DNA of 64,000 nt from Heterotrichella gracilis. Lineage: Eukaryota > Sar > Xanthophyceae > Tribonematales > Xanthonemataceae. This document shows, piece after piece, positions 1 through 64,000 of this stretch. How positions within the stretch are numbered: position 1 is the stretch's first letter; each line of letters opens with the position of its first letter. The notes under the pieces are model-generated. The model did no database searches. It saw nothing but the letters and a program-made list of their open reading frames with translations, and was not told where the DNA came from. A program made the translations under genes and the position numbers. Location: contig JAULBX010003666.1 in NCBI GenBank assembly GCA_032358255.1, forward strand, positions 1-64,000, written 5' to 3'.

Positions 1-56
1 GCGCCGCATGTGCAAGACTGACTGCTAATCTGGCTATTTTGCTGGAATGCATGTAA
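1..56. repeat. Dispersed repeat, copy 1
   Basis: Shares CATGTGCAAG, CTGCTAATCTGG and a following TTGCTG-AATGCATGT with 6945-7006. Copy 1 then runs into a short (AACT)n tract at about 56-75. Function unknown. Confidence 0.6.
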
Positions 57-2167: not shown

Positions 2168-2222
2168 TTACTGAAAAGGTTTCATCCCCAGCACCGCCCT
2201 GTGCCTAGGGTCCGACCCCACA
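2041..2222 (-). repeat. Triplicated methyltransferase 3' end
   Basis: The last codons and stop (2168-2222) are followed by two decayed copies at about 2110-2160 and 2050-2106, all sharing TTCATCCCCAGCACC-like and GTGCCTAGG-like text on the plus strand. The copies extend past the stop codon, so the duplication is not tied to splicing. Confidence 0.75.
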
Positions 2223-4975
2223 GTGACCACATGGCTGAACCCCGCGCTACGCATGAGCTCCTCCAGGTCTGTGCCGTAGTAGCTGTCAGAGTGCGGCTCG
2301 GTGGACTTCATGAGGGTGAAGATAGGGGCGGGAAGGTTCTGGATCACCTTGGACCTGGGGGGGTGGAAGGGATGAAGGGTTTTAGGGTTTGGGAAATGAG
2401 GGTGACAGGGTTGAAGGCGCGGGAAGGTTCTGGATCACCTTGGACCTGAGGGGAGGAGGTTGCAGGGTTTGAGGGTTTGCATGGAGAGACTTAGGGTTTA
2501 GGGTTTAGGGTTTGAATAAATAAACCCGGCGATTTGCATGATGGATTATGAAGGCCTTGTGCTATATTTCAGGGCTCTGTGATTTTAATGAGCGTGAAGA
2601 TGGGCGCCGGCAGTAAAAACTGCGGTACGTGTGATGGCCTTGGACCTGGAGGGGGCCACAAGGAGAGAGATGAGGGTTTTTAGGGTTTTCATGGACTGGA
2701 AGCAGCATGGGTTTCAGGATTCTGGATGATGCAAGGGCTGGGGCTGGTATGAGGAGACAGGCGTTTTTATGACATGATTAATGCCCAAATTCAATCATAA
2801 GTTAATCATTTTCTCTTGCCGTTTTTATGACATTGATTAATGCCCAAATTCGTGGCCCACCAACAAACATGGGGTCCCCCCTCCAAATTCCCGCCACCCA
2901 TCCCACCCCCACCCACTCACTTTGGGTCGTTGTCCACATACAGCACCACCCCCCCTGGCCGCAGCAGGCGGTGCGCCTCCCCCACCATGCTGGCGATGAT
3001 GTGCGAGGGGCACTCGTGGATGACAAACTGCGAGGATAACAGGTCGAAGGAGGAGGGGGGGAAGGGGGCGGCCTCCGCGTTCCCGTGCACGTAGGTGATG
3101 GTGCGGGGGGGCGGCGAGGGCTGGCGCTGCTTCTGCCTGCGGGTGGTGGTGGTGGAGAGGGGAGGTCAAGGGGTGCGCGGCATTCACTTTGCTCATCTAA
3201 AACTCGACCTAGTCACTGCAGATCGGGCAACAGGACAACACAACATTGACGAAAACACCGCTGCAGATTGGTAGATTGGGGTAGGCAGCCGCTACTTCCA
3301 CACCCTACACCCTGGCCCCCCAAACCCTAAACTCACCTCTCCCTGTACTCCGCCACTGCCAAAAAGTGCGGCGACAGGTCCAGCCCTGTCACTGCAGCAG
3401 ATGGGTATGTGGCAGCCAGCCAGCGCGTGCTGACCCCCGCAGAGCACCCCACATCAAGCACATCTGACACCTCCCGGGCGCCGTGGGCTGTGCGGAAGGC
3501 CTGCGGGTGGGGTGGAAGGTGGGTGGATGCATGGGTGGTGGTGATATGGTGGTGGCTGTGGCGGTCGAGTGGGGGGTGGTGGGGCTGTATACGTGTGTGC
3601 ATTGGTCTGTATGGGCCTTGGGTGTATGTGAGGCTTGTGTGTGTGTGGATGGATGGTGGGGAGGCGTGGCATCAGGGTTGGATACATTTGGGCATTGCCA
3701 CGGGTGGCGCCCGCAGGGGAATCAAAATCATCAACTGCCAGGTGGTCCACACCAACAGGGGCCCACATCACCATGCAACAATTAGGACATTTTCGACCAA
3801 ACGTTACAGCCTGTTCAGTTAACTCTAAACTCCAACCTGCACTGCATCCATGGCCGCCCGCCTCACCCTAAACCCTGACCACCCACCTGCACCGCATCCA
3901 TGACCGCCCCCCGCACCCGCCTGCCCGCCTCTTCCACACTCAGCCCCTCCTCCTTGAAAACCCGTAGGTGCATGGCGTCAGTGGCGGGCTCCACCTCAAA
4001 TGCCGCCAGCCAGTTGAGGTTGCCCTGGTCGTATGCATGGAAGGGCTGGAGGTAGTAGCCGGGGTAGACAAGGGAGGGGTCCTCCATCTCCGCCTTGAGG
4101 GCGTACACCTGCGTGGATGCCCGTGGGTGTGCGTGTGTGGTGTGTGGTGTGTGCGTGTGTGGTGTGTGTAGGGTGTGGGGTGTGTATGGTGAGGGCTGGA
4201 AGTAGAAGTAGCCATGGTAGGCCAGGGAGGAGTCTTCCAGTTCTGGTCTTGAGGGCGTAGGTATTGATAGGGGTAACAGCAGGGTTGGTGTCTCTGCCAT
4301 GTGCCCAGGCAATGAGGGTGCTGGTAGGCTGGCTTCTTTACTGCCCCCTGAACCCCTAAGACCCAAATTGCACAGTCTCTCTTCTGCCACCCACCCTTGG
4401 CGCCTCCAGCTCACCATTGCTTGACTGCATCCCTAACACCCCAAACCCTAAAAAAAGAACCCAGCTTTATAGATGTCCACCTATCCCTGGCGCCGCGTCC
4501 AGCGCACAGAGGTGCCCACCCCAACCCACCCCCGAAACCCTAAGACCACAAAAACCCTAACCGCGGCTAGGGGTGCGTGCGCCCCACCCACCTCTGGCGT
4601 CGCCTTCAGCGCTCGGATGTTGGCGTCCCACCCCACCCCCGCCTTCTCAGCTGTTCCCTTTAGCACCCCCTTGGCCAACACCTTCATGGCTGCGTAGAGG
4701 GGCGGGGTGTTGATGGCTACATTCACCACCTTGGATAGCAACGTGTCACCGGTCCACTGCGGCTGCGCCTTGTCGGAGGGGGCGGTGGTGCTGGCGGCGG
4801 GGCCTGCCCTGGCGGCGGTGGGCCTGGGGCGGGGCGCGTGGTGGCGGTGGTGGGGGGTGTGTGTGTGCACCCGTGGTGTGTGCAGCTGCGAGGGCAGTAG
4901 GCCAGCCATGAAGGAGGAGGCTACCAATGGGTTCCACCAGTGAAAGACCGACAATGGGATCACTTTAGGCAACAC
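2168..4975 (-). CDS. Class I SAM-dependent methyltransferase
   Basis: Five exons chain in phase: 4592-4975, 3887-4108, 3337-3500, 2921-3136 and 2168-2354, giving 1,173 nt or 390 aa. The start is the first ATG of the open frame at 4975; the Pro/His-rich N-terminus could be an organelle-targeting leader but is not conserved, so the start is less sure. The Rossmann methyltransferase core is clear: motif I VLDVGCSAG at about 215-223, the acidic SAM-binding turn GLDLSP, the block HGNAEAAPF, SSQFVIHE, and LRPGGVVLYVDND. Upstream conserved text PGYYLQPFHAYDQGNLNW is typical of a plant and algal methyltransferase family of unknown substrate. The substrate cannot be told from sequence. Echo copies of exon ends fill its introns and 3' flank, and a dispersed 70-bp repeat lies in the intron at 3501-3886. 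Confidence 0.88.
2409..2650 (-). repeat. Two echoes of the last methyltransferase exon start
   Basis: The acceptor and exon start at 2325-2362 (plus-strand text GGTTCTGGATCACCTTGGAC) recur at about 2409-2450 nearly unchanged, and in decayed form at about 2583-2650. Telomere-like words (about 2488-2513, three TTTAGGG units) lie between the copies. Confidence 0.75.
2488..2513. repeat. Telomere-like tract
   Basis: Three head-to-tail TTTAGGG units in the last methyltransferase intron. Comparable patches lie at 22100-22150, 23008-23036, 50103-50122, 52674-52690, 58735-58765, 61196-61222 and 61995-62062. Confidence 0.9.
3667..3740. repeat. Dispersed 70-bp repeat, copy A
   Basis: About 73 bp, over 90% identical to copies at 40494-40566 and 40696-40768, in the same orientation. 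The core includes GGTTGGATACATT, GGCATTGCCACG and GGGGAATCAAAATCATCAA, with a short inverted repeat GCCACGGGTGGC. Weaker similarity continues on both sides for perhaps 120-150 bp in all. This copy is intronic in the methyltransferase gene. Family unknown. Confidence 0.85.
4390..4625 (-). repeat. Echoes of methyltransferase exon 1 end
   Basis: The exon 1 donor region (about 4588-4630) is echoed in intron 1 at about 4477-4525 and again near 4390-4412. All share a CCACC(T)..TGGCG core with CAGCGC text, interspersed with CCCTAA words. In the same intron, 4190-4255 is a decayed copy of the exon 2 start at 4036-4112. Confidence 0.6.
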
Positions 4976-6653
4976 CCCGTGTGGACCTGTTGTATCAAAG
5001 TCCTAGTGCGATGTGGGCATTTTACAGGGGCATGCCCAAAGATCGACAATATCTGGCCTCGATGGCAACAAACAACAGGGATACAAAGGCTGCAACAGTG
5101 TTAGTAAACAAGGCAAAGGTTTGTGTGTCGAGCGATGTGAGTACGTTGTATGGGATAAAGACGATGCTTGGACCCCAGTGACGTGCAGATAAGGGAGTGG
5201 ATATTGCAATTGTTTTAATTTAAAATGCTATTCAATTTATTTGTTCAATAAACCTGCAGCCTTTTCGAACGCCCAGTTAAGGCTGTACCAGGCAGAGGTC
5301 CTATCACTGATTATTGTCACTGGAACACGCAAAGCCTGTAAACGTTATGTGGTATGAGTCCACAACGGACCAACTTGACCTTTCAAACTGCCACACCGTT
5401 AACAGTTGGGATGGCACTGTAGACTCCACCCCAAGTTACAACTTGTCAAGAGCAGGCACTGCCAGGCAAGGAATTTCCTTTCAAAGCACACACACACACC
5501 TATCATCGGTACACCATGGATTGTGCAGTGTGGTACAGCTCCCCTTGCGCAGGCATTGCGCAAGGCCCCAAGGATCACACTTAGACACAGCCCTGTGTGT
5601 ACAGCCTACACCATGGCTCAATGACAACAGCAACCCCTGTACAAGGTGTCAAGATGGTGTCAAGTACCACGTATACCACTGGGATCTCGAGACAGTCTCA
5701 GCCCTCCCTGTGGGCCACTGCTGGTTGACAACTGGTGTTAACTCATGCAACCAACCTGCTGACAATTGGCTAGAACATCTACAACTGCTTTAGTGCGCAG
5801 ACACGCAAACAACAATATACTCAAATTGAGGCAGTTCCAAGGTGTGTCACTGTCCATTGTTGGTTCGGACGCACACAGTCTAGCCAAGGAAAACATGCCG
5901 CATGCTGTAGCAGCACCACCCTCAGGGTCTTAAGTGAAAACACACCAACTGCCGGTTGCTGGTGCCCTATCCGGCTTGCCACACCAGACCATAGCGGCTG
6001 CTCGGCAGCACAACAAGCAGTACCGATAACAACCAATAGGAATTCTTGGGTAGTTCCATGTCAACCCCAGGCGGCGCCTTGCGGCCACCCCCACCTTGGC
6101 CACAGTCACCCGCCAGCACAGCCTGAACCCTTCTCCCCCCCACAGACCAGCAGCAAGCCACAGCAGCCCCCACACCCCTTATGCCACCTCCCCAATGCGC
6201 CATCCTTAGGGTTAGGTCCTCGCACACCATGTGCGCCCCTCCCTGTGCCAGGGCAAATCCCCAGGCCGCCCCCCCCTCACCCAAAGCCAGAACCACACAG
6301 CCCAGTGCCCCATCACGGGCTGCTGCTCAGCGCCAAGAATCCCCCACAGGCTCTCTCCCCTTTAAACAAAGCCCCCTCATGCGTCCTCCCTCGGCATTGC
6401 ATTAAGGTCCATCCTCCCGGATCATCAGCGGCTCCCCCATGTGCCAGAAGCAGAGCGCAGGTGTGAAGAGGAGCAGCCCTAGCGCCCCGTCAACTGCTGC
6501 TGCTGAGCGCCGAGAGGCCTACATAGGCTGCCCATTTCGACCTGCAAGCGCTGGCTCCCCCTCAAACTGAAGCCCCCCTACGCGTCCTCCTTTGGTGGTT
6601 TTGGGTTATTTGTGGGGCCTCAAATTTGGCCCCCCTCAAATAAGCCCCCACCC
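4976..6653. other. Intergenic region between methyltransferase and kinase
   Basis: No exon-like coding was recognised from 4976 to about 6370; it must hold the methyltransferase promoter and the kinase 3' UTR. From about 6373 two decayed copies of the kinase terminal exon precede the real one. Confidence 0.5.
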
Positions 6654-6720
6654 CTATGCGTCCTCCTCCGGTACCACGTTGAGGTCGTCCTCGCGCATCA
6701 TGAGCGGCTCCTCGTGCAGG
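6373..6720 (-). repeat. Echo array of the kinase terminal exon
   Basis: The terminal exon text around the stop (plus strand TATGCGTCCTCCTCCGGTAC, 6655 onward) is echoed at about 6575-6600 and, longer, at about 6373-6440, where ATCATCAGCGGCTC matches ATCATGAGCGGCTC of the exon. The copies lie downstream of the stop codon on the gene strand. Confidence 0.65.
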
Positions 6721-9700
6721 TCCACACGCGAAACCTCCTTGCTGCCGGCGGGCGCGGCGGTACCCGCGGTGGTGATCATGTCCTGCAGCGCCTTGTTGCG
6801 AGCCTGGACGAGCTTCTGCAGAACGGGAAGAGGGGGGCGGTTGGAGGTCAGGCATACACATACACACCCTGGGGGGTCTAGAGTGCATAGTTGCACAGAT
6901 CTGAGACATGTGTACAAAATTGTAAACAGTGTTCCAAAGTGCTTGGCGCCCCATGTGCAAGTCTGGCTGCTAATCTGGATGCCTTGCTGTAATGCATGTG
7001 GCTAAGTATTTAAGTAAGGATGCATGGTGGCGGCATGAGGTGGCGTGCGCTGTGGTGCCAAGGGGTAAGGGATGCACCCCGCGAGTGGTAACGCATACAT
7101 TGGGCGCAGCAGCATGGCACCACGCATGTGGCATCCATTTTCTTCTGCTTGAATCAACCTACCGGGTCCAGCTTGCGCCGTGCGATGTACTCGTTCAGCC
7201 TGCTTTGCTCCTTATTCACACCGCCCAGCGCCTCCTGCACGCGCCATCACACACATTCAGCCCGCAGCCCGCGGTGGCAAGGTATGGGCTCCAGCACCTG
7301 GGTATAGGTTGCCACGCATGCGCAGTGGAGCATGAGGTGGCAGGCATGCGGGAGGGAGTGCGTGGGAGTCAACAAGTGCATGGCTGCTGCACCGAAGATG
7401 TGCGGGCCAGGCGCCTTGGCGGCAGAGTGTGCACGGGGTTGACTGCATGTGATTATTCATGGGGCTCCTTGCATAGGGTTCACTGCAAAGGGTTCAATGG
7501 GCACCAGAGCCCATATCCTTGGCAATAATCAATGCATGGGTATCATTGCAAGCTGGCTTTCTTGTCGGAATGCAAGTTATATCAATAATTGCAAGCGGTT
7601 ACACTGCCTGCACGCACCACTAGCTTTGGCAGCAGCGGCTTCTGGTACCAGGGGTGCTGCTCGATGTCTGGCACTGTGATCCGCTTCTTCTCGTCAATCA
7701 CAAAGATCTTGTTGAGCAGGTCGGTGCACTCGCTAGACAGCTGCAGGGGAGGAGGGGGCAAGGAGCACGTCAGCCACATGAAACCCTAAAACCCCAAGTC
7801 CTAACCACATTGAGAACTGAGCCCTAAGCCTTGGATGATGATATGGCATGCCATGCATGGCACATGAAAAGGTCTTTCAATGGCGGCCTGTAGTGAACAG
7901 TGCAATGGCAGGAGCATGGGAAGCCAACCAGCATCCCTCCACCCGGCCAATCTGGCGCACCTCCTTCAGTGGCGATGTGCACAATCGTGCAACTCTACAC
8001 AATGACTCTAAATGCAGTTGGCGAAGTACACGGCAAGCCATCCCCACCCCTTACACCCCGCGTGGTCGATGGTGTGTTCCTTGTTCACCACTCCAAGGCA
8101 CCAAACTTGGCTCAACCTGTAATTCGCTGGGAAGCCACCCATGCGCCCCGGCTGGCACCTCTTTGACCGACCCCGCAGTGTGCAGTTTATTTTGGATGAC
8201 CCTAAACCCTAACCCGCACCTTCTTGACCGACCCTGCGATGTGTGGCAGCTCGCTCCACCGCTTGCTGACCTGCTGCAGCCACACTTCCAGGTGCGCCTC
8301 ACTGGTGTTGGGGTCGGGGTGCTCGGTGTGGTCAAAGGGGAAGGTGCCCAGCAGCATCACGATCAGCAGCACCCCAGAGGCCCACACGTCCACGGAGCGG
8401 CCGTCGTACCCGCGCGCGCCGTTGCGCGAGTTGATCAGCTCCGGGGACATGTACACGGGGGTGCTGCGCGCCGGGGGTGGGGTTGAGGGTTAGGGTTTAA
8501 GGGTGCTATGGGGTTTGGTGTGGCGTTGGTGGCGGACAAATTGGCCATGCTTAGAGTACTTAGTACATAATGTGGGAGAACGTGGTGGCTTGTGTGGCGC
8601 AGCATTTCAGCATTGCTTGGGCTAGTCCAGCACAGCAATCAGGGTCAGCAGTGTATGTGCGTACCCTATGTGGGTGTACATGTTGGCGTCTTCTGACCAG
8701 GTCTTGGCAAAGCCAAAGTCGCAGATCTTGAGCACTGGGGGGTCGCTGCCGTCAAGTAGCGTGTTGTCCAGTTTCAAGTCTCTGCAGCAAGTGCCAGAGG
8801 GTCAAGCACACCACAAGCGATATGCACTGCGGCTGAAGGGTGAAGCAGTGCACCCCAACCCATGAATGCTTCACGGGCTGCCAAAAGGTGCTCCTTGCTA
8901 TGCGTGTTGATGGATGTTCAACTGACAACCTCACAGCCTGCGCCTGGAGTGACTCACTTTTGAGAAATTCCCAAGTGGGGAATTCCAACCGGCTGCGTGG
9001 TGTTCAATGTTCAATGAAAGATGCATCAACACGCTCAGCAAGCAGCACATTCCAGCAGCCTGTGCAGCCTTTGCGGCTGACCTTGCCTCAATAGTACACC
9101 TATCCTTGCCACCAACATGGGGAGGCATGCTGCTTACCTGTGCGCCACGCAGTGCTCGTGGCAGTAGTCCACAGCGGAGAGGAATTGCTGCACCACAGAC
9201 GAAACAGCCACTCAGCCTTTGAGTACAGCACGTCAGGATAAAGCCTTTTGGTTGGCAGAAGGCAGTGAAGGTGGTACAGGACGGTGGTGTTGCAGGTGGT
9301 ACATGACAAGGTGTTGCAGCCTCACCTTGAAGAAATATCTTGCCTCGTCCTCTGATAGGAAGAGCCCCGTTTGTTGGGCAGTTGTGAACCGCTCAGCCAC
9401 GTAGGAGGTCAAGCTGCCTCCTGCTGCATACTCCATCACCAGCGCCAGGTGGGTGGGCGTGAGCAGGGCCTCAAACGCCTTGATCACATTTGCATGGCCC
9501 CACCCAAGGTCTGCTTGTATCTGTTGGGGAGCAAGATACCCAGTAAATACTTTACTTCAGAGTTGTGTGCTGTGAGCCAAGCTCACCATGCACCTGTCCC
9601 TCACCACCAGGGCTGTCTGTCTGTCTGGGGTAATGGCATGAAGGGGCCCGGAACAGAAGGTCCCTAACTCCTCAAGGACACAAGGCTACAGATGGACGAA

Positions 9701-10093
9701 CCAACACAAATAAACGCAGGCAAGTTGGGTCTGCGACAAGGGCATACCGTGGACCTTCTGCCTTGAGCCTTCATGCATTTGCGGATGTGCCATCCTTACC
9801 GTGAACTCCCGCAGCAGCGTTGCCATGAGAACCCGAGGGACGGGGCGTTTGATGAACTTGATTGCCACCAGACTATTGTTCCCAGGCGTCTTCCCAAGCC
9901 ACGTATCCCCCGTCCCACCGCGCCCTAAATGCTTCACCAGCGAATACGTCCCGTTGAGCCCAAAGTCGGGTCGTACTGATCCCCCCGCCCTAGTCTTTGA
10001 GCCATCTTTGTGCTTCTTGTCCTTGTTGCCCGAAGTCCTAGCGCTCGCTGGCTCGTACCCGTCCCCACTGGATGGAGAAAAGCAGTTGCCCAT
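6654..10093 (-). CDS. Ser/Thr protein kinase, SnRK2-like, predicted N-myristoylated
   Basis: Eight exons chain in phase: 9800-10093, 9326-9520, 9138-9187, 8665-8781, 8220-8463, 7618-7740, 7163-7234, 6654-6815; 1,257 nt, 418 aa. The start at 10093 gives MGNCFS, a classic N-myristoylation signal with a palmitoylatable Cys4, so membrane anchoring is likely. All kinase landmarks are present: glycine loop LGRGGTG at 56-62, VAIK lysine 79, HRDLKLDN with catalytic Asp 181, DFG at 201-203, and GTPVYMSPE. The catalytic core and the post-kinase helix best resemble SnRK2/CDPK-type plant kinases; no EF-hands or NAF motif are seen. The tail is charged and ends LNVVPEEDA. The exon 6 donor could be 3 nt further downstream. 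An echo of the exon 5 end lies at about 8157-8185. Substrate unknown. Confidence 0.85.
6945..7006. repeat. Dispersed repeat, copy 2
   Basis: Second copy of the roughly 60-bp repeat at 1-56, lying in the last intron of the kinase gene. A weaker relative may lie at about 7527-7570. Confidence 0.6.
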
Positions 10094-12669: not shown

Positions 12670-13786
12670 GGCTGTCGACTGTTTTGTGCCCACTACAATG
12701 CCATATGACGCCAGCTGTAACCTCCGAAGGTGGAGTCTGTAAGCAACACGCCGTTGTTGACAACTGTGGGCAATGCGCCCCTGTAGACCAGATCTAAACA
12801 GTTCAAACACCGATGACAATCTATTGTTGCTTGTCTGAACAGTAGACAATGAGCAGAACAACGAAAGGAGGTCGAGTACAGGGTAGCAGAACTCTCCAGG
12901 TTGTCGATGTGGTATACGCCGGTATGCACAACACTTCGTGTTCTGAAACAAAGCAAAGCAGATGCATGCTTCAGTTATTTGCACACTATTTTGACCATTA
13001 AACAGTCACATTTTTCAGAGTAAAAAGTTTGTTCTTTTTGGGCTACCAGGACTCAGCCATGGCTTCATCCCTAGAGAAGGTGCACACTGTGGGACCAGCG
13101 CCACAGACAACTCACTCAGACATGTTTAGACACCCTAGGGCAAACACATTTTACAAAGCGCTTTCAAGCCCAACGCGGACTGTCCAGAAAGGTCGAGGTT
13201 TGGTGAACCTCAAGTGCACATTTTACGATTTATATATCAGGTCAGAGTGTGGAATACTGAGGGGTGCATACATACATACTTGCTAAAGGCGAATAGAAAC
13301 TGAAAAGAGTTAAAAGCTCTCAGCACTGAGCAATAATTTCTGCAATATTTAATTTCAAGCAATTTACGGCCACAGACCCTTGGCCACAAAGCCAGAGGGC
13401 AAAACACTCGTGTACAAAAAGAAGTGTGAACCAGAGAGGTAGAGGCGAGGCACGAACTCGTTGCGTCCCCCAAACCCTAAACTCTTCACCCCAATCCTAA
13501 CAGTGGTGCCAACCTTGCCACCCGAAACCCTATCGGTGGCGTCCCCATGGTGCACCCTGAACTCGGCCCCCCGGTGCAACCCCCCACGCTGAGCCGCAGC
13601 CCTCCCCCCCACCTGTCCAGGCGCACCCCCCCCTCGTCCCACCACCACCCCTTCAGCCGGTGCTTTTGCACTGCAACAGACACCCCACAACCAGCGATGG
13701 CCAGGTGGTGACGGCAGTGAGTCTCATCCTTCATTGGTTTCCCTCTCTACCATCGGTGCTTGAGAATGGGGGGCGTGCCACGAGCG
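12670..13786. other. Intergenic region upstream of SELENOF
   Basis: Holds the SELENOF promoter and the 3' end of the glycosyltransferase-like gene. An open minus-strand frame at 13364-13690 was considered as a last exon of that gene but a better terminal exon exists at 13787-13859. Nothing else recognised. Confidence 0.5.
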
Positions 13787-55000: not shown

Positions 55001-58000
55001 TGCACTACTTAATCTCCACCCCCAACCCCGCCACCACCACCACCCCACGCACCACTCAAACTCCCCCGCGCCGCCCCCCGAGCGCGGCAGGTCAGCTCCC
55101 AGAAGGTCCATCATGTCGGTACCCTCGCTTAGGTTAATCCTGTGCAGCGGGGTGCCCGTGGCAGCTGCCAGTGCAGCAACCAAACTGCTCTTGCCCACTC
55201 CAGGGCTGCCCTCTAGGAGGACGGCCTTGGGAACCTAGGGTTTGGAGGAAGAGTTTGTGTCAGGGTTTGACAAGGGTTTGTGGTAGGGTTTGTGTCACCA
55301 CCAGGCTGCTCTTGCCCACTCCAGGGCTGCCCCCTAGGAGGACGGTCTTGGGGACCTAGGGCTGTGGTAGGGTTTGTGTTAAGGCATGGAGATAGGGGGA
55401 GACAACGTAGGGTCATTGCATGGGCAAACCTCATCTGCATCTGTACTTCTTGCGCACGTTATGAAATCGCTGTGGAGAATTGCATACCTGTAATGCGCGC
55501 AGGACACGCAGGGCGTTGCGGGCTGTGGTGGGTGCTTGGAAGCTGAAGGCTGGTTTGGATCCCTGGGACTGGTCGGAGGGGCCGCGCGAAACAAAAAACG
55601 GCGCGATGCCCCAGCACCCCGGTGGGGGGTCACCCCCAGATTGGTTCATTTCTCTCTCCCCCTGGGGCGCAGATTGGTTCAAAGAATGTGCCCTCACGCC
55701 TTCCATCGCTGTGGCTGAAGAATCTGAAAGAATTTCTGAATTTGAAACGGGGGTTAGATCCCTCCCTGGGATCCCCCCAGCGGCCATAGCAGCAGCGGGG
55801 TGAAATTCTGGGGGCAGCTGGGACACCAGAAATGCTTGGCATTTGGCCCGGAGCTCTGCCGCGGCGGCCGCAGGCATTCCTACCCCCAGCCCGATCCCGT
55901 CCAGCAGCACCAAATGTGCCCCGTGCGCATAGGCCTCCAGGGGGGCCATTTTATTCGACATTGCATTGATAAAGTTCACCTGCAAAGAGATACAAATGAC
56001 AATCAATACTAAACCCAGCAAAGTAAGGACGGAAAAAAATAACAACAATGGATTGGCACTTTAAAAATACATAGTAGAATCAACATAGTAAAATTAATGT
56101 ACTTATCCACTCCGGCCTTTTCGGGTTTCCTGAGGTTTGTCAAGGGTTCCCGCCCCACTCACCCACGCCAGCAGGTCCCTGACTGACAGCCCCGCCCGCA
56201 CAACCCCGCCCCCTGTGGCCCTGAAAAACCTCCAGAATTCCGCCAGCCTGCCCGCCACCTCCTGGCGCTTGGGCCCCTCTGCTAGCCTGGACTCAAGAAT
56301 GGCCCGAAGCTCGGCTTCGTCCTCAATGGCGGGAACCCAGATCTGCAAAGGAGTGGGGGCGGCTGAGAGCGGTGAAGGAAGTAGACGGCGTTCACATTGC
56401 ACGTGTCAATAACTTCAAGGTTAAGGGACGGGTTCGAGATACAAGGTGTACATACAGGAGGGACCTTATCCAATTTGGTTTCCAGAACCCAAAGGGCCTT
56501 GTGGGTGGTAGAAACTCATCCGGCATTGCAGCTTTAATGCCACAAAAAACCCTAACGCCTGATACCCTCAGACCAAAACCCTCACCTGCGTAAACCTGTT
56601 GCTGAGCGCCGGGGATAGCTCCTTCTTGCCGTAATCCCCACCGGGGTTCATGGTGGCCACCACCCGAAACCCCTCCGCAGCCACCACCACCTCCGCCCCC
56701 GCGCCCCCCCGCTCCGCCAGCGTCAGCGTCCTCCCCCTCTCCAGCACACTATTAAGCCTCTCAAGCACAGCATCCTCCGCCAGATTCAGCTCATCGATAA
56801 GTAATATGTCCCCATGCTTCATGGCGATTACAAGGGGCCCATCCACCCACTCGAACGGCGCCTTGGCGGCGTCGGCGGCAGCGGCAGCGGCTTCGGCGGC
56901 GGAGCGGAGGGTCCCGAGTTCGATCCCCAGGGGGGAGTCGGGGGCTGGGGGGAGGGATTCTGGGGATTCGGCGATTGCTGCGGCGGCTGCCGCAGCGGCT
57001 AGGGTTTGGAGGGCTGCAGCTGCGGTGAGGAGGTCGGGGCCGGCTAGGGTTTTGGGGTTTTCGGGCGACGAGAGGCCAAACCTGCGGGGTAGGGGAAATG
57101 CAATCATGTCAACAGAGGTAGTTGTAAGTAAATATCCAGGGTAGAATTGTTTTCTGAAAACTTATTTCGACTTGTCCTGCACAGGAGCAAGCATCCACAT
57201 GTGCATGGCTCCCGCACACCAACAGTCACATGGCCCCTTACACACCCACCCAATCACTGCCAAAGCATGTTTCCCCCCATCACCCCCCTCCATTCCTACC
57301 CACCCACATCCCCTCCACCCACCTTGCCAACAGCGGGCTACCCCTTGCCACACCCAGCGCCGCATCCAGCTGCCCAAGCGCCCTCGACCGATTTCTCACA
57401 GGGCGGAACCCCCCCAGGAAATCCGCTGTCTCTGTGTGCTGGTTGCAGTTGATGGTGCGCAGCCGCTGGCCCCGCATGAGGGTCGCCAGCTGGCACACGG
57501 AGGTTTTGCCTGTGCCTGTTTCGCCTACCAGCAGCACCGGCTCCGAGTGCTCCAGGCACCTGGGACAAAAACCCTGATCAGAACCCTAGCAAGACCTAAG
57601 GAAGGGTTTTTAGTAAAGAACGATCCTGTTCTGAGCATTCAGGGCACACGACCACAGTGAAAACCCATGCTAATGCAGACCCTAGAATAACCCCATAGCC
57701 TGATTTTTGCCCCTGGGAGTGAAATAAAAGGGGTGGGGCCATACGTGGAAGCAAATAGGGATAGGAAGGATGGGAGTGAATGTTTGCAGGGGGTGTATGG
57801 CCGTGTTGACAACGGGCGTGTCAGCGCAGCAGCAGCACCCCATGTGCGTGTTGGGGTTCATGTGCGCAGCCTCTTGCCTCACCGGCCAATGGGGGGCCGA
57901 CAAAGTGGTTGGGATGCAGTTGGGTGGTCAAGTGCTTGGGTGGAAACATATCCTAGCCAACGCGGGGCGCAAAACGGAAACTCTCACCACTTCCAGTAAC

Positions 58001-61000
58001 GCGTGTGCATGGGTACATCTGTGGCCAAACCATAGCCCAACACCCTGGCCAAAACCCTAGCACAACCCTTCCCCACCTGTCCACCAGGGTGTACATTCTC
58101 CGCATGCTGGGTGTCCACACCACCCCCGCCAGGGCGCCCGCCAGCTCACCACCATCCGCGGCACCCTCCGCACCACCGGTGGGGGGCGCGGTGGCGGGGT
58201 CGGTGGCTGTGGCTGCCAGCACCTCCCTCAGCTTCGTAATGGCTTCCTCCCCTTGCTGGGTGTACAGGGCAGGCATGTCCAGCTGCATGGGGTGCGGGGG
58301 ACACGCATTAGGGTTCAGGGTTTTAGGGTTTAGGAGTTTGCAATGGCTTGCTCCTATTGCTGGGTGTACAGGGCAGGCATGTCCAGCTGCATGGGGTGCG
58401 GGAGGAAGGCGTTAGGGTTTGAGGGTTTGAGGAGCGTGCAAGCAATAACAAAACTGGTTGATTTTTTTAAATTGATGTTGAATTTAATTTTAGTTAATGT
58501 TGTGCTGCAAGCGCACCTTGACCCTCATGACCTGCTCCAGCGCCAGCGCCACCTGCTGCCGCTCCCCCTCCCCCCGCAGCCGCTCCCCCAGCACCATGAA
58601 CCCACTGGCAGCCAGGTCATCGTATGATATTCCCCCCCTGGAGGCCCACCGGAACAGGTCGCGGGGGGTGATGAGACCATACTTGCCGGCAAACACATTG
58701 GTGGCCTGCGGGTGGGGGTGGTTGGGTGCTTTGTAGGGTTTAGGTTTACCATTTAGGGTTTAGGCGTGACATCGCCGTTCCTTGTCGGCAAACACATTGG
58801 TGGCCTGTAGTTTTCCACTCTACACATGTGGCTGGGTGTGACTCTGCAAGGCTCATATGGAGATGATAACTGCTGTGCGCCCACACCAACGTGGGAGTGA
58901 CAGGACGTCAAACCTGGGAGTGACAGGACGTCAAACCTGGGCTCTAATCTTGCTGCAGCTCCCTCCTACCCAGAGACGGTTCTTGGTGGGGTTTTCAGAG
59001 TACGAAGCAAGGTTTCTATATCTTTCCACACCTGCCGCCTCCTCTGCAGCTCCCGCATGACCGCCAGCATGCGCCCCGCGTGACTCGGCGCCACCGCGCA
59101 CCGCCTCTCAATAATGGTCGCCAGCTCGCCATCGGGTATGTCGGCCACATGCAGCTCCAGGAAACGGGACCTGAAAGCCCTAGAGAGGGTTTTGCGCCCC
59201 GCGTAGGCGCCGCCCGCGGGGTTCTGTGTGGCGAACAGCATGAAGTGCGGGTGCGGGGTGATGGTCTCCTGGGTCTCGGGCAGGAACAGCTCGCGGTTGT
59301 CGTCCAGCAGCCTGCAGGGTGGTGGAAGGGTTTTCATTACGGGGTCTTAGAGTTTACATGTTAAGCGCCCCCAGCACCTCCATAAATCACAACCTAGGGT
59401 TAAATACATGTTGAGCGCCTCTAGCACCTCGCTAAGCGCCAGCTTCAGCGCATCCAGCACCAGCGAACACCCTCGTTATAGAACCCTAAATCCTACACCC
59501 TACACCCTAATCCAGGGTATAATACCTGTTGAGCGCCTCCAGCACCTCGCTGGGCGCCAGGTTCAGCTCGTCCAGCACCAGCCACCAGCCCGCGCGCACC
59601 GCCGCCACCAGCACCCCCTCCCGCCACACCAGCCGGCCCCGCTCGTCCGCCACGTGGCACCCCAGGTACTCCGCCAGGTCGGTCTGGTGGTGGTTGTTGA
59701 TGCGCACGCAGCGGTGGCCGGTGGCGGCGGCGAGGTGGGCCACCAGGGAGGTCTTGCCGCTGGAGGTGGGGCCCTGGGAAGAGAAGGATAATGATTATTA
59801 TTGACTATTAATTATTATTTTAATTAATTCATGATCTATTATGAATTCTTTACTTCAACAATAATGCGTAAAATGGGGATTTAAGTAATGGATAAAGTCG
59901 GGCACCAAGGGAGGCCTTGCCTCTAAAGGTGGGGCCCTAGGAGGGGGAGGGAGGATAGTGCACATGTGCAAACCTGATCCAAACCCTAGGGCATGGGGGT
60001 GTTGGCTCAGGGGAATGAAATAGAAGGGGATGAGGCATAGGTGAAAGGGAATGGGGATGGGAGGGAATGTTTGCGGGGGGTGTATGGCCGTGTTGACAAC
60101 GGGCGTGTCAGCGCAGCAGCAGCACCCCATGTGCTTGTTGGGGTTCATGTGCGCAGCCTCTTGCCTCACCGGCCAATGGGGGGCCGACAAAGTGGTTGGG
60201 ATGCAGTTGGGTGCTTGTGGTCAAGCATAACCCTAGGGTTTCACCTGCAGCAGGATGGGGTACTTCCTCAGCAGCACCGCCTTGGCCAGGCTGCCCAGGT
60301 GTTTGTAGTTTAGGGTTTAGGGGTTAGGGTTTCACTCTACCTGCAGCAAGATAGGGTATTTCCTCAGCAGCACCGCCCTGGCCAGGCTGCGCAGGTGTGT
60401 AGGGTTAAGGGTTTTAGAATTTAGGTTTTAGGGTTTCCTCCTACCTGCAGCAGGATAGGGTATTTCCTCAGCAGCACGGCCCTCGCAAGGCTGCGCAGGT
60501 GTGCAGCGACGCTGGCGGTAGCCACAAATTGGGACCCCTCGCCCTCCAGATTCCCCGCATTTTCCGGCACCCCCAGGGGCCCCGCCTCCACCCAAAAGTG
60601 GTCAAACAGTACGTGGGTGCCGCCTGGGGGCTGCGCAGGGGTGCGCATCAGGGCCTGTGGGGGAGGAAAAGGGGGGGTTTGAGGACGAGCAAACAGGGGG
60701 GGGAAAGTGGGGTAGATGTGTGAAATTTGAGACAATGGATATCTACACTTGCGTTGACGTCCACACGAAGAAAATTGGGACAATTGAATCTAAGAAGGCT
60801 GGCAGGAGGCAACGCCCTCTTCAATGTGGCCGGCCTGTTGCCCTACATTATTTTACCAGTTGGGTGGTACCGTAGCAAGATCTGGCCAATAGCTGCCCAG
60901 GCACCCCCCCCGACCGCCCCTGCCCCAGCCACAGCAAGCAGCCCCCTCACCTTGAGCTCCGCCTTGCCCCCCAGCAGCTGCCTATGCAGCAGCGCCTCAA

Positions 61001-64000
61001 CCACACCCGCACTCGCACCCCCCAGCTGCGTTAGGAAGGCCATGGCGAAGCCGTCGTACAGCGCGCGCTGCAGGCCATACACGGGCAGGGCGCAGGAGGC
61101 GTACTCCAAAGCCCTGGCGAGGGTTCGCAGGCTGTAGGAGGGCTTCTGGCCGGCCCCATCGGTGAGGGTGGTGTCCTGCGGGGGAGGTAGGGTTTCAGGT
61201 TAGGGTTTAGGGTTTAGGGGTTGTCGATGGGCCTATGTGGTAGGCACAGCGCGGCCCTTGGCCACATGACAGAATATGATCCAGGCAACACCCTTCCCTA
61301 GGGTTTCCACCTTCCTCTGCCTAAACCCCTCCCTCTACCTTTTACCCTTACCCTGCAATTAACCCAGAGAAACTAGATCTACGTGCAGTGAACCCCAAAA
61401 GAACCCTTCCCTAGGGTTTCCACTTACCGCCTTGTCCTTGACCTCAACATAGAGGTCCACGATTGCGTCAAGGGGTGCGCTGGGCCCCGCGGTGGGTAGG
61501 TACCCCGCCACCATCAGGCGCAGATCCTCTCGGCTGGTGGGCTCAGATACCCACACCTCCGTGAACCTGGGGGGGAGTGGGGGGTGGTGGGGGTTGGGGG
61601 AGTGGGAGGGGAGTGGCGCCAGTCCAGAGCACTGCTTACTTTACAGCCTTTGCGTACACGCGTTGGTTGCTGTAGCCTGAGACTGTGCTCGTAACCACAA
61701 AATGACAAAACAGTGGGGTACTGGTATGCGTTTCACATGAACAACGTCATAGTTTTCTTGGGCACAGAAGCGATAATGAATAAACCTAGTATCAGCCCCA
61801 CCTGTTGCGCAGCGCGGGCGGCAGCTCCCGCTTGCCTGCGTCTGTCCCTGGGTTCATGGCTGCAAACACACGGAAACCAGGGTGCCTCGCCAGCGCCTCC
61901 ACGTCACCCCTCTCGGTCAGGGTGACACTACCGCGCTCCCCTTCCAGGAGCCCAGCGAGGCGCTCCAGGGCCTGGGAAATGGGGGCAGAAGTGGTTTCTA
62001 TGGTTTAGGGTTTGCGGACTAGGGTGTAGGGTTTGGAGTTTGGGGTTTGGGGTTTGGGGTTCGGGTGGGTTGTGCCTGCATGTTCCCCCATGACTGCAAA
62101 CCCCAAACAGGAATAAGGTGTGGAAAGGGTTTGATCGCCATAGCTACTCTCCTCACCACACACCCTTGGAGCAAAAGGTGAAACCCAGGTATATTGACCT
62201 CGTACGTTTGCACGGCAAAATCACAACATTTTCCCAAATGCCACGCACCTCGGGCGGGGCCAAGTTTATTTCGTCCAGCAGCAGCCACCAGCCCTCCCGC
62301 AGGGCCTTAATCAGCGCCCCCTCCAGAAACGCAAATGCAAAACCCCCCTCCGCCGCCGCGGCCGCACGCTCAGCCGCCGCCAGGTCAGCTCGAAAATGCG
62401 CCCATTGCTCCTTGAGGCTGTTACCCCCCCCTTGGCGGCGGCGCTTGGCGGGGGGCTCTGAGGAGGCGCCACCTGGCGCCTCCTGGGTGGCTTGGTACTG
62501 CAGGGGGAGGAGGACGGAGGTGCAATATGTAAATACAGGAGGGGGTGCATTTATGGGTGCGGATGGTTCAAAGTGGTTGGCCGCTTGCGGCCCCTGTTTG
62601 GGACGGAGAGGGGGCTGGAATGCCTGGGGTAAAAGATGAGCAGATTTGGAGGGCACCTTTTGGGTGCACGGGAGGGGTGACAGGATATGTGGATGAGTGC
62701 TTGGAGACTAGGAAGATGCAAAATGCTTCTGATGGCAATGCAATGCGGGTGTTGATGCGTGGTGTGATTTGCACAGGCTGTGCGCGGCGTGGCTCAGAGA
62801 ATTGTAGTCTAATTTATCTGTAAGGATCCTCATAGTGGGAATTGGAACAAAAATCTTCAGCATTGCCACGCCGCGCATGCTGTGCTGGGTGCCGGTGCAC
62901 CGTGAGGAGTGCACTATGGTGAGTGGTGACCAAAATACTGTGGTGGGTGGTGATTGGATAGTTTCATCCATTGATGTGGGTACGTAGCAATGTTGCTGAG
63001 ATGCGTCTTTAATAAAGACTCTTTATGGTACAGCGACAAGCGTGCCTGTGGTGGTTGTGCGGGTGCATGGCAAGATGCTCAAGTTGATGCTGCAATTTGA
63101 CGATGCAAGCCTTCCTACATAGGTTAGGTCTACTACCTAGTCTAGCTAGAGTTTCTGCTAGGGTTTTCCCATCGGCTGCTCAGGGCAAAATTTGAACTCA
63201 ACCCGGAGTAACCCGGTCAGTAGTCTAACATGTATATTGATGCAAGATCATCACTGCAGCCGAGGAGGAAAACCCTGACAAAAGCCTACAAAGTGGAAAC
63301 CGCTACTCCCAACCCTGCAAACTCCAAGACCCTTCCCTTCAACCCTACAAAAAGGAGATCGCTACTGCCAAAACCCCTCCACCTACCCAGTTAACACCTT
63401 CCCTTTGACCCTACATCCTACACCAAACCCTTCCCTAAAAACCCCAACAAAACCCCTACCTTGTCCGCGGCCGCCCTCAGCGCCTTGAGCAGCGTGGCCC
63501 ACTTGCCCCTCTCCGCGTACTTGGCCACCCTCCCCAGGAAGGCGTCGTTATCCCCCTTGGTCCAGGTGCGGCGCACCAGGGGGGAGAAGCGCTCAAGCAG
63601 GGGGAGCAGCGCATCGCGGGGCTCCACGGGGCGGAACCCCCCCAGCAGGTCTGCGCTGTCCGTCTGCTGGCTCAGGTTGAGCACAAGCAGCTTGGCGCCA
63701 ACCTGGGAGATAGGGTTTGAAGGATTTAGGGAAAGGAAAACCATAAATAGGATGTTTAGGGTGTGGGTTGTAGGGTGTGGGCATGCTGGCTCAGGTTGAG
63801 GAACAGCAGCTTGCCGAAATACGGGGGGGTAGGATGTGGGGTTTTTCATGTAGGGTTTTGTCAAGAAGGTGTAGAATGCAGACTGAGCTAGTCTTGTGCC
63901 TGACAAGCTACCCTACACCATACCCCCCTGACCCAAAAGAACTGATTCCACAAACCCATGCTCCAGGTGACCAGCACACCAAAAGGTGGTACAATGTGGA
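29125..64000 (-). CDS. MDN1: Midasin (MDN1/REA1), AAA2 to C-terminus, 5' end beyond window
   Basis: Sixty-two consecutive exons from 63702 down to the TGA at 29125-29127 chain with matching phases; they sum to 15,468 nt, about 5,155 aa, and with AAA1 missing upstream the protein should be near 5,800 aa (human 5,596, yeast 4,910). Midasin is the dynein-like AAA+ giant that strips assembly factors (Ytm1/WDR12, Rsa4/NLE) from pre-60S ribosomes in nucleolus and nucleoplasm. Order seen: five AAA modules (AAA2-AAA6), a long helical linker, an Asp/Glu-rich region and a C-terminal VWA/MIDAS domain. No frameshift or internal stop is needed. Block entries give exon coordinates. Introns are mostly 150-600 bp and carry most of the echoes and telomere-like patches in the window. 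Confidence 0.97.
29565..29660 (-). repeat. Echoes of MDN1 exon 61 donor end
   Basis: Plus-strand GCACCATCC(T/G)GTGCAGC.ACTCCT of the exon end (29695 onward) recurs at about 29565-29590 and in decayed form at 29634-29660. CCCTAA words lie between the copies. Confidence 0.75.
30190..30400 (-). repeat. Partial duplicate of MIDAS exon 60
   Basis: 30208-30284 is over 90% identical to the 3' part of exon 60 (30405-30480), including CTTGGCCATCGCCTTGCTCA and GGCCCGCACCCGTTCTCCGC, and keeps the frame. It is flanked by the same CCACCCACCCACC tracts. A third, much decayed copy may lie near 30318-30355. Confidence 0.88.
30638..30717. repeat. Tandem repeat, about 41 bp twice
   Basis: Two nearly identical units containing GGTTTGGGTGAGAATAAAGG and GGCCCAGGCACAGAGG, in the intron before exon 60 of MDN1. 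Confidence 0.9.
31283..35856 (-). CDS. MDN1: MDN1 exons 49-58: acidic D/E-rich region
   Basis: Exons 35665-35856, 35218-35354, 34883-35005, 34380-34531, 33696-33876, 33281-33479, 32769-33016, 32340-32574, 31794-32110, 31283-31481. Almost every exon is a separate acidic block rich in Glu, Asp, Gly and Gln. Landmarks shared with human midasin keep the order: KKDVSDQIEDEDQV, IEMDQDFDGAMED, LDEKLWGDD, NPLRDLGNAMERW. This flexible arm gives the MIDAS domain its reach. Reading frames on the opposite strand here look open only because they mirror Glu/Asp codons. Confidence 0.92.
35425..35465 (-). repeat. Echo of MDN1 exon 50 start
   Basis: CATCAAAGTACTGGTCCATC and CTCAATGCCTGCA repeat the exon start and acceptor at 35325-35358 with one or two changes. 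Confidence 0.88.
36179..50575 (-). CDS. MDN1: MDN1 exons 23-48: linker
   Basis: Exons 50365-50575, 49257-50096 (largest, 840 nt), 48861-48989, 48239-48588, 47732-47973, 47235-47491, 46589-47091, 46213-46404, 45673-45988, 45180-45407, 44366-44959, 43835-44145, 43278-43480, 42790-42957, 42336-42545, 41598-41823, 41125-41239, 40161-40352, 39704-39929, 39210-39409, 38770-38919, 38080-38271, 37516-37785, 37031-37302, 36675-36837, 36179-36404. Helical, Ala/Leu-rich and weakly conserved, but local matches fix the order: REYPLYADITQPLQ, EEEEDEEDYRRRFP, WPEHPLLAQL, WRKLELASW, HAYYSMW, LQQHMMHMLR. In midasin this stalk links the ring to the MIDAS domain. The donor at 46213 (GTGAGA) was chosen because a nearer GT breaks the phase. 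Confidence 0.88.
40494..40566. repeat. Dispersed 70-bp repeat, copy B
   Basis: Same orientation as copies A (3667) and C (40696). Lies in the MDN1 intron between exons 40161-40352 and 41125-41239, only about 130 bp from copy C; similarity continues to a shared CTACCACCAT about 35-40 bp downstream of the core. Confidence 0.9.
40696..40768. repeat. Dispersed 70-bp repeat, copy C
   Basis: Nearly identical to copy B through GGGGAATCAAAATCATCAA, in the same intron and orientation. Confidence 0.9.
41008..41050 (-). repeat. Echo of MDN1 exon 39 end with lost donor
   Basis: CCCTGGCTTAGCTGCAGCTG matches CCCTGGCTCACCTGCAGCTG at the exon end (41113 onward). The donor complement CACC has become TAGC, so the copy cannot splice. 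CCCTAAACCC lies between copy and exon. Confidence 0.85.
46832..46909 (-). repeat. Coding minisatellite in MDN1 exon 29
   Basis: Units built from GGATCGGATT and GGTTGGATCG repeat through about 78 bp in frame and encode a run of I/L-Q-S-D-P/A-T/I-R/Q units, an insert absent from human midasin as I recall it. Confidence 0.85.
50843..53349 (-). CDS. MDN1: MDN1 exons 18-22: AAA6 module
   Basis: Exons 52869-53349, 52401-52653, 51995-52163, 51366-51587, 50843-51067. Walker A is GGGGSGKTT and SDLLGGFEQL follows. The Walker B position reads LLLDQANLCNPSVLD: the catalytic Glu is Gln, and human has DNVNFC at the same place, so AAA6 is probably a non-hydrolysing site in both. FMAMDPR and HGEVSRAMRNRGIE close the module. 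Confidence 0.94.
51690..51788 (-). repeat. Echo of MDN1 exon 21 first half
   Basis: About 90 bp copy the exon start at 51495-51592: CAGCAGCCAGTG(G/A)CCCTCCT, CTAGGGCGCGGGTCAGGGCG and CAACCCACTCAAA, with the acceptor-side CCTGCG also kept. A GTGGTTTAAGG/GTAGGGTTTGAG patch lies between. Confidence 0.92.
53644..55234 (-). CDS. MDN1: MDN1 exons 15-17: AAA5 module
   Basis: Exons 55053-55234, 54067-54365, 53644-53833. Walker A GSPGVGKSS, then INLSEGTDMMDLLGADLP; Walker B WVLLDELNLANQ; FAAQNPVQEGGGRKGLPRSF; FNLRDLLRWC. The acceptor of the first exon is TAG rather than CAG. The intron 54366-55052 has CCA-triplet runs and copies of the donor region. Confidence 0.95.
54905..55050 (-). repeat. CCA tract and donor echoes in MDN1 intron 15
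   Basis: Runs of CCA triplets alternate with three copies of a CCA(T/C)GCACCACTCAAAC-like unit; the last copy is the real donor end of exon 15 at 55053. Confidence 0.7.
55275..55346 (-). repeat. Echo of MDN1 exon 15 start (AAA5 P-loop)
   Basis: CTGCTCTTGCCCACTCCAGG and GCTGCCC.CTAGGAGGACGG repeat 55180-55240, including the TAG acceptor. Several AGGGTTTG words lie between. Confidence 0.92.
55488..57559 (-). CDS. MDN1: MDN1 exons 11-14: AAA4 module
   Basis: Exons 57323-57559, 56586-57081, 56163-56342, 55488-55979. Walker A GETGTGKTS, then TADFLGGFRPV; an Ala-rich insert; GPLVIAMKHGDILLIDELNLA (Walker B); ATMNPGGDYGKKELSPAL; and a long tail with GIAPFFVSRGP matching the same place in human midasin (HPFFIPRGP). 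The insert in 55488-55979 is Ser/Glu-rich and lineage-specific. Confidence 0.94.
57767..57926. repeat. 160-bp intron repeat, copy 1
   Basis: About 97% identical to 60054-60213, same orientation, in intron 10 of MDN1. Contains TGTATGGCCGTGTTGACAAC and ends TTGGGATGCAGTTGGGTG. It has no long reading frame or obvious terminal repeats. Confidence 0.92.
58077..59773 (-). CDS. MDN1: MDN1 exons 7-10: AAA3 module
   Basis: Exons 59526-59773, 59032-59311, 58517-58705, 58077-58282. Walker A GPTSSGKTS, the conserved CVRINNHHQTDLAEYLG, Walker B LVLDELNLAPSE, then LLDDNRELF, MLFATQNPAGG, RAFRSRFLELH and the ITPRDLFRWA arginine-finger region. All key residues are present, so this site should hydrolyse ATP. 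Confidence 0.95.
58335..58405 (-). repeat. Echo of MDN1 exon 10 start
   Basis: AATGGCTTGCTCCTATTGCTG and GTGTACAGGGCAGGCATGTC copy 58239-58295 including the CTGCATGGGGTGCGGG acceptor side. GGTTTTAGGGTTTAGGAG lies between. Confidence 0.92.
58780..58810 (-). repeat. Echo of MDN1 exon 9 start
   Basis: GGCAAACACATTGGTGGCCTG repeats the exon edge at 58688-58708, with GTAGGGTTTAGG and ATTTAGGGTTTAGG between. Confidence 0.9.
58893..58940. repeat. Tandem repeat, 24 bp twice
   Basis: GGGAGTGACAGGACGTCAAA plus CCTG occurs twice head to tail, in the intron before exon 9. Confidence 0.9.
59350..59465 (-). repeat. Two echoes of MDN1 exon 7 donor end
   Basis: TTGAGCGCCTC(C/T)AGCACCTCGCT of the exon end (59529 onward) recurs at 59408-59465 over about 55 bp, and as a shorter decayed copy at about 59358-59385. 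In both copies the donor complement ACCT is ACAT. Confidence 0.9.
60054..60213. repeat. 160-bp intron repeat, copy 2
   Basis: Partner of 57767-57926, in intron 6 of MDN1, 2.3 kb away with four exons between. Weaker similarity extends about 40 bp upstream of both. Confidence 0.92.
60247..60400 (-). repeat. Two echoes of MDN1 exon 6 donor end
   Basis: The exon end and donor at 60440-60505 (ACCTGCAGCAGGATAGGGTA, TTCCTCAGCAGCAC) recur at about 60243-60300 and 60340-60397. Both copies keep ACCTGCAG, that is, a usable CTGCAG/GT donor, with telomere-like words between every pair. Confidence 0.93.
60445..63702 (-). CDS. MDN1: MDN1 exons 1-6 of window: AAA2 module
   Basis: Exons 63460-63702, 62249-62497, 61802-61971, 61428-61566, 60951-61175, 60445-60654. 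The first exon opens just after the Walker A loop (VLNLSQQTDSADLLGG), so the P-loop exon is past position 64000. Walker B is LLLDEINLAPPE in 62249-62497, sensor text FAAMNPGTDAGKR in 61802-61971, and YSLRTLARAL in 60951-61175. The segment before Walker B carries a basic insert PAKRRR that could act as a nuclear signal. The 1.0-kb region 62498-63459 is intron. Confidence 0.93.
63780..63815 (-). repeat. Echo of MDN1 exon 1 start
   Basis: GCTGGCTCAGGTTGAG and ACAGCA/ACAAGC GCTTG match 63665-63695, upstream of the exon on the gene strand; GATAGGGTTTGAAGGATTTAGGG-type words lie between. Confidence 0.75.

Follow-up and report, generated by a model that had tools for sequence, protein, structure and literature searches.

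About one fifth of the introns in the DNA analysed here, a single 64-kb stretch of the Heterotrichella gracilis genome hereafter called the window, carry a worn copy of the end of an adjoining exon. These copies, or echoes, were detected by comparing the last or first 100 bp of each exon with the adjoining intron, at an SW score of at least 32 and with the other introns as control. In the refined gene model 14/102 donor-side edges and 10/102 acceptor-side edges match their own intron, as opposed to 0.05 and 0.12 expected; taken together, 24/204 exon edges match the adjoining intron, and 0.17 would be expected from other introns. The first model had given a similar picture (22/206 edges in 19/103 introns, 0.2 expected), and its inverted control at the same score returned 0 matches. 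Identity between copies ranges from 69 to 100%. The local duplication signal at exon edges is therefore confirmed as real in the window, and the proposal that introns resemble their own exons more than unrelated introns do holds in its within-window version. All figures refer to this one window of one genome, and to predicted exons.

The window is eukaryotic nuclear DNA, intron-dense, with a G+C content of about 57%. Exons were predicted by a gene-finding HMM trained on the 64-kb window itself, which recovered AG|GTGAG-like donors, and acceptors formed by a pyrimidine tract and GCAG|G. Predictions are backed by Pfam and midasin matches. Predicted proteins match PAP_fibrillin (FBN) and aminotransferase class-III (GSA) in Pfam, and the minus-strand chain at 2168-14927 includes methyltransferase, protein kinase and Sep15/SelM domains. 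This chain is made of several genes fused by the HMM, and the model of the GSA chain similarly extends into a second gene. The minus-strand protein initially labelled glycosyltransferase-like has no Pfam match. The largest gene, MDN1/midasin, has 72 exons in the first HMM model and 68 in the refined one; the first 2500 of its 5007 residues, used as phmmer query, match solved midasins at 1261 bits. In the refined model the echo mask was set by hand and short exons were omitted, and the boundary of the MDN1 Walker-A exon (first base 55234) was also placed by hand. MDN1 fragments found no match in collections of prokaryotic, viral and plasmid contigs, and nothing was found in the window by Rfam at gathering thresholds or by ARAGORN.

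Some echoes are exon-like. The first gene model called at least four of them exons, plus parts of two more (55320-55333 and 24060-24131). Copies featuring open frames and splice signals, and called exons by the gene finder, are located at 60245-60280, 51703-51778, 30211-30273 and 35429-35455; they are possibly annotation errors or alternative exons.

The abundance of local repeats was measured independently of the exon models by a blastn self-comparison of the window, with dust masking and a cut-off of at least 30 bits. Direct pairs number 39 at offsets of 20-300 bp (12, 21 and 6 in three bands), 0 at 300-500 bp and 2 at 500-1000 bp. More distant direct pairs provide the background: they occur at 0.121 per Mb2 at 1-3 kb and, beyond 3 kb, at 0.045 per Mb2, and the corresponding chance expectations at 20-300 bp are 2.2 and 0.8. 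The view that the copies go beyond simple-sequence noise is upheld by this excess. At the same offsets only 2 inverted pairs were found, versus 39 direct ones. Three of the 39 pairs (2295, 18515 and 25135) lie at the threshold, at 30.1 bits. Switching dust off added 5 pairs at offsets below 400 bp, and the self-comparison without dust revealed no class of intron-intron pairs hidden by low complexity. In an ungapped diagonal scan with a complexity filter, 65 segments were detected at offsets 8-599, versus 5.5 per 600 control offsets.

The 39 blastn pairs and three short-offset pairs, found by TRF and by the diagonal scan, were merged into 35 loci. The pair 40494/40696 was dropped because it belongs to a dispersed element with a further copy at 3667-3740, and 34 loci were retained; figures on random placement, intron length, geometry, telomere words and locus gaps still include the dispersed element (35 loci). 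Exons are touched by 27 of the 34 loci, and 7 loci lie wholly outside exons, so the phenomenon is not confined to exon ends. The initial annotation had counted more than 30 copies of exon edges: the number of loci is of this order, but not all of them involve an exon. By our own assignment of the final list, exon-touching loci are 1/1 in the FBN/PAP-fibrillin gene, 6/7 in the 2168-14927 chain, 3/3 in the glycosyltransferase-like gene, 4/6 in the GSA chain and 13/17 in MDN1. The donor side of the exon is involved in 16 of the 27, the acceptor side in 11. Aligned copies are 16-169 bp long (median 54), the median gap between them is 49 bp, and locus offsets range from 23 to 292 bp. Offsets divisible by three are 6/35, and leave no trace of the coding frame. 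Two loci, 18515 and 25135, are 16-bp exact pairs at threshold, and could be chance matches. The duplications had been described as occurring throughout the window. This is too strong, as a locus-free gap extends from about 6.5 to 17.5 kb (11 kb centre-to-centre, P=0.045, computed with 35 loci); by coordinates, the nearly 11 kb from 6700 to 17460 are devoid of local duplication loci.

All MDN1 loci are on the minus strand. Exon ends are repeated in introns at 29554-29736 (exon end 29688-29736, 80% identity) and 43734-43857 (exon end 43826-43857, 83%). The repeated segment includes the donor at 40965-41153 (exon end 41074-41153, 75%), at 59355-59590, where the exon end 59514-59590 has two intron copies, 59396-59472 and 59355-59380 (84-88%), and at 60234-60506, which hosts three copies. 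One intron copy at the latter locus, read as exon 60245-60280 in the first model, adds the segment AVLLRKYPILLQ, which is unmatched in solved midasins. Exon starts with their acceptor are similarly repeated upstream, within the intron, at 35327-35469 (35327-35367 and 35428-35469, 93%, gap 60), 51506-51783 (51506-51592 and 51696-51783, 92%), 59735-59950 (59735-59787 and 59897-59950, 80%), and at the Walker-A exon (55179-55379, intron copy 55300-55379, 87%). No tandem residue is detectable in the 103-bp gap of 51506-51783. At 58238-58432 the duplicated segment spans acceptor, exon start and intron end (58238-58327, upstream copy 58342-58432, 88%). An exon start at 58682-58708 is copied upstream in the intron at 58781-58807 (58682-58807, 96%, gap 72), and the locus 63665-63816 pairs an upstream intron copy with an exon segment that stops 5 bp short of the acceptor-side edge (88%). 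A three-copy array with a period of about 100 is found at 30210-30482, where the outer copies are 96% identical and the middle one is decayed; its intron copy was called exon by the first gene model. Two intronic tandem arrays are located at 30636-30716 (38 bp x 2.1, 100%) and 58888-58941 (23 bp x 2.3, 96%), and two pairs lie wholly in introns, at 34560-34802 (83%) and 61290-61423 (21 bp, 100%).

The fibrillin gene, on the plus strand and identified by its PAP_fibrillin Pfam match, hosts one locus, 667-754, in which the exon start with acceptor 727-754 is repeated upstream in the intron at 667-694 (93%). The other loci in the first 7 kb are on the minus strand. The last coding exon of the methyltransferase has its end (2174-2218) copied past the stop codon, at 2058-2102 (locus 2058-2218, 91%), and another decayed copy is seen by eye in the spacer. 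At 2295-2613 an exon start plus intron end (2324-2391) has an upstream intron copy at 2415-2479 (84%); this locus also includes a weak overlapping pair, 2295-2335/2573-2613, at 30.1 bits, the source of which is 19 bp inside the exon. The pair at 2762-2851 is wholly in an intron (97%). A short-period array at 3821-3918, with a 25-bp unit and an offset of 50, covers the donor-side end of exon 3887-4108. The exon segment 4042-4105, which ends 3 bp from the acceptor-side edge, has an intron copy at 4192-4259 (locus 4042-4259, 78%), and the exon end 4584-4641 a downstream intron copy at 4477-4534 (locus 4477-4641, 74%). The locus at 6298-6711 is a cluster of four pairs that overlap one another; one of them extends to exon 6675-6815.

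The minus-strand glycosyltransferase-like gene has an exon end that is repeated, donor included, almost in tandem at 17464-17627 (78%). Another exon end hosts an exact pair of 16 bp, at 18515-18591 (30.1 bits, at threshold), and at 19232-19496 the exon end 19395-19496 has an intron copy, 19232-19311 (69%). GSA loci are on the plus strand. Exon ends with donor are repeated at 21772-21937 (21772-21845, intron copy 21873-21937, 78%), at 22241-22422, where the unit also includes the intron start (22241-22320, intron copy 22342-22422, 88%), and at 23751-24094 (23751-23804, copied 292 bp on at 24043-24094, 78%); part of the last copy was read as exon 24060-24131 by the first gene model. Acceptor and exon start 22805-22856 have an upstream intron copy at 22743-22793 (locus 22743-22856, 81%). 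The pair at 22999-23219 (77%) is outside exons in the refined model, from which an adjoining predicted exon of 12 bp was omitted, and 25135-25215 is a 16-bp exact pair at threshold (30.1 bits), also outside the counted exons. A third copy of the exon-end echo at 22241-22422 is located 1.6-1.7 kb downstream, at 23961-24036. It also matches flanking sequence specific to the intron copy (22331-22407), and the echo may therefore itself have been copied.

Repeats share a distinctive geometry. Of the 27 exon-touching loci, 24 have an exon copy that runs across the splice junction, and in the other 3 it stops 3, 5 or 6 bp short of it. Were copies taken from random nearby positions, 45% of the exon sources would be expected at more than 6 bp from the edge, in the exon interior; exon-interior-only sources are 0/27 (P=8e-8, geometry of 35 loci), the interior pair 2295/2573, 19 bp inside its exon, having been merged into a junction-crossing locus. 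The duplicated block is thus contiguous with the junction, and duplication in place is its most likely origin. Past the splice site most exon-edge copies continue into intron sequence, which indicates that the intron was already present. Pairs with both copies wholly in an exon are absent from the self-comparison with dust. Without dust there are two, a 21-bp pair (280-300/389-409) and a low-complexity acidic stretch (33405/33706). The copies are separated by at least 15 bp in 27/34 loci, and by less than 15 bp in 7/34. Gap and outer flanks share no residual similarity in 21 of the 27 gapped loci, in a test that is weak for short gaps, and a tandem residue is found in 6/27, versus 1.4 expected. 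In two of the 21 residue-free loci (2058 and 30213) the gap contains a middle copy that has decayed; along with the 6 loci with residue, these two indicate that part of the loci are decayed arrays.

Direct orientation, short range, junction-spanning position, near absence of exon-exon pairs, range of ages, and lack of tandem residue in the gaps of most gapped loci are probably best explained by duplication in place during the repair of staggered breaks. A staggered double-strand break, or nearby nicks on opposite strands, would arise; both overhangs would be filled in and the ends joined, at times with filler DNA, leaving a gapped direct duplicate. Duplicates formed wholly inside an exon would break the coding sequence and be lost by selection. 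In a duplicate spanning a junction the spliceosome would keep using the site beside the intact exon, the second copy becoming intron; the exon copy would be held by selection and the intron copy would decay, and be read as an echo. Intron-intron duplicates would form as well, but with both copies drifting they would vanish sooner, and the bias towards exon edges may accordingly reflect survivorship. In textbook tandem duplications derived from breaks the copies are adjacent, and the gap of at least 15 bp found in 27/34 loci tells against this simple form of repair; the GSA copy 1.6-1.7 kb away is at odds with a short-range process. Small tandem duplications are reported to result from breaks with protruding ends, through fill-in and end joining (PMC5730883, PMC8355091), and, among human genome insertions of <100 bp, to be the commonest kind (PMC8355091, PMC5730883); insertion at staggered breaks can also duplicate the flanking sequence (PMC7215372). 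The loci described here resemble such duplications in being direct, short-range, tens of bases long and in place. They differ because unrelated DNA mostly lies between the copies, and because many of them extend across a splice junction and survive in the intron as a decayed copy. The known system depends on end joining and on Pol alpha-primase-CST fill-in.

The age of the loci bears on the origin of the edge bias. If blocks other than wholly exonic ones are placed at random, 9.7 +- 2.6 of 39 pairs are expected to contact an edge, versus 29 observed. When decay was also simulated, with constrained exon bases changing at a rate of 0.35, a value chosen by us, the expected edge share was 30, 42 and 54% for block lengths of 30-90, 50-120 and 80-150, respectively. 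The pooled share of 27/34 exceeds the simulation for short, middle and long units (p 3e-9, 8e-6 and 0.0017), as does that of older loci (20/22; p 3e-9, 2e-6 and 2e-4). In young loci, at least 90% identical, the share is 7/12 (p 0.036, 0.19 and 0.49). The edge excess thus resides mainly in the old class, as predicted by a faster fading of intron-intron pairs; the young-old contrast is only suggestive (p=0.07, or 0.03 with the dispersed element included). Since the old class is above the simulation at every unit length, either the model sets intron turnover too low or there is a true preference for edges. Real targeting could take the form of breaks concentrated at exon-intron junctions, for instance because of R-loops or of donor flanks rich in G, or of selection in favour of duplicated splice sites; it would be compatible with break repair and additional to it. 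The pooled share, above neutral placement and decay, argues for targeting, but the effect is not clear in young loci, and targeting is judged unlikely. The initial annotation had suggested a steady process of local duplication, tolerated where coding constraint ends. Recurrence, mixed ages and the near absence of exon-exon pairs agree with this; exon ends as a special target receive no clear support, as the 7/12 of the young loci compares with an expected 30-54%, and the higher share of older loci goes in the direction predicted by survivorship, although it exceeds the simulation.

Replication slippage would account for the loci as plain tandem duplications, in which the unit equals the offset (23-292 bp) and the gap is the decayed intron part of the unit. 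True arrays at 30210-30482, 60243-60503, 30636-30716 and 58888-58941, the residue in gapped loci above expectation and the 7/34 loci with gaps below 15 bp all fit slippage, and these few arrays are better explained by it than by break repair. As a general explanation it is nonetheless rather unlikely, because 21/27 gapped loci lack residue, including the young 51506 (92%), 35327 (93%) and 58682 (96%). Templated insertion, by polymerase theta end joining or serial slippage, would copy a nearby segment into a break that had arisen in the intron. The copies are indeed short-range and gapped, and inserts whose template lies no more than 250 bp from the break have been described (PMC5730883). This origin is very unlikely all the same, given that no exon-touching locus has an exon-interior-only source when 45% would be expected, and that the 2 inverted pairs at 20-300 bp are fewer than expected if either strand could be copied. 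A further candidate is intron gain, which other eukaryotes are known to achieve when an exon segment with AGGT in it is duplicated in tandem (PMC3443670, PMC2891723); this likewise is a local duplication hidden by splicing. Of the matches that would be its signature, those between the upstream exon end and the 3' end of the intron slightly exceed expectation at lower scores (2/102 at SW of at least 28, 0.04 expected; 3 at 24 or more, 0.38 expected). At SW of at least 32 they drop to 1/102 introns, and matches between the downstream exon start and the 5' start of the intron to 0/102. Moreover, as most exon-edge copies include intron sequence, the intron is older than the duplication: unlike in AGGT-type gain, it predates most duplications and was only lengthened. 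The probability left to intron gain is close to nil.

Telomere-like sequences were considered as a source of the DNA between copies, since telomerase could heal a break and the added TTTAGGG-like repeats act as filler. Mammals offer a precedent, in telomeric insertions accompanied by duplication of the flanking sequence (PMC2246262, PMC7215372); some loci have the same copy, telomere-like tract, copy anatomy, and telomere-like words are common in the introns of the window. AGGGTTT/AAACCCT occurs 121 times in non-coding DNA, versus 12.4 expected from a trinucleotide model, an excess of about tenfold. Telomere-like bases in repeat spans are 803, versus 207 at position-matched introns (3.9-fold, 95% 2.5-5.3; 35 loci, dispersed element included). 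Within the copies, non-coding parts are enriched 4.0-fold in the telomere motif, above the 1.6- to 3.7-fold of the seven of 19 scrambled motifs listed, and spacers are rich in these words while the nearest outer flanks are at background (80 bases versus 81.7 in the 60 bp outside loci; 3.0% in 50 bp, versus 3.3% far away). Other data tell against the hypothesis. Young loci show no excess (67 telomere-like bases versus 57.8 expected, present in 3/13 loci), while older loci do (428 versus 81.9, and 308 versus 66.9). In spacers, where filler should be found, the telomere motif is enriched 3.7-fold, and the seven of 19 scrambled motifs listed rise comparably, 2.0- to 4.7-fold. The orientation of the G-strand, pointing away from the exon, is also common to the scrambled motifs listed. 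For these three reasons telomerase filler is unsupported as a specific cause, and is considered highly improbable; the loci differ from interstitial telomeric insertions in that young ones lack a tract excess, and in that scrambled G/T motifs share the spacer enrichment. Outside repeat spans, no difference in telomere-like density was seen between echo and echo-free introns (p=0.70), nor any relation of this density to that of loci in 4-kb bins (p=0.59). In favour of telomerase filler, at the ends of echo-free introns the telomere class covers 204 bases on the donor side and 253 on the acceptor side, versus at most 98 and 129, respectively, in all 19 scrambled classes. TTTAGGG-like words are denser within 40-80 bp of exon edges, where scrambled motifs have the same orientation and a lower density.

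Repair of staggered breaks, the preferred reading, involves a type of mutation that is already known; what is new are gapped, junction-spanning duplications made visible by the exon-anchored copy. As far as titles and the opening of abstracts tell, among the open-licence matches listed decayed exon-edge copies in introns are undescribed as a class. Tandem duplication of (mutually exclusive) exons similarly places the copy next to its source, but the copies here are partial and mostly decayed, and a few keep open frames and splice signals. Introns with a local repeat have a median length of 386 (n=27), those without of 268 (n=75; p=0.001, dispersed element included), a difference expected if the events add length, and equally if longer introns offer more room. 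The broader idea that introns here grow mainly by gapped, in-place, junction-crossing duplications, arising from frequent staggered breaks at exon edges, with about one fifth carrying a dating copy and spare splice sites, is doubtful, and is put forward tentatively. Were it true genome-wide, the exon copy would serve as a near-fixed reference and the intron copy as a molecular clock of intron lengthening; mutation and selection could be separated in intron growth, and the origin of spare splice sites would be shown. For annotators echoes are a warning, since gene models can take them for exons.

Sequence sharing among introns was also monitored. Introner elements were rejected as a candidate, because only 3/5151 sense-sense intron pairs reach an SW score of at least 50, and introns therefore share little sequence. 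The dispersed element, at least 73 bp long, is found at 3667-3740, 40494-40566 and 40696-40768, in introns of two genes. Its pairings are 96% identical, 99% (40494/40696, 73 bp) and 89% over 99 bp; it starts with TGGCA, and ends with TGCCA in 2/3 copies. A miniature element could have as its terminal repeats the two copies that lie 129 bp apart, though one pairing runs 26 bp further left. A direct repeat of 212 bp (90%), the longest alignment in the self-comparison that brought out the third copy of the dispersed element, links 57715-57926 to 60011-60213, in two MDN1 introns 2.3 kb apart, and a 72-bp repeat (81%) is found at 1-72 and 6946-7017.
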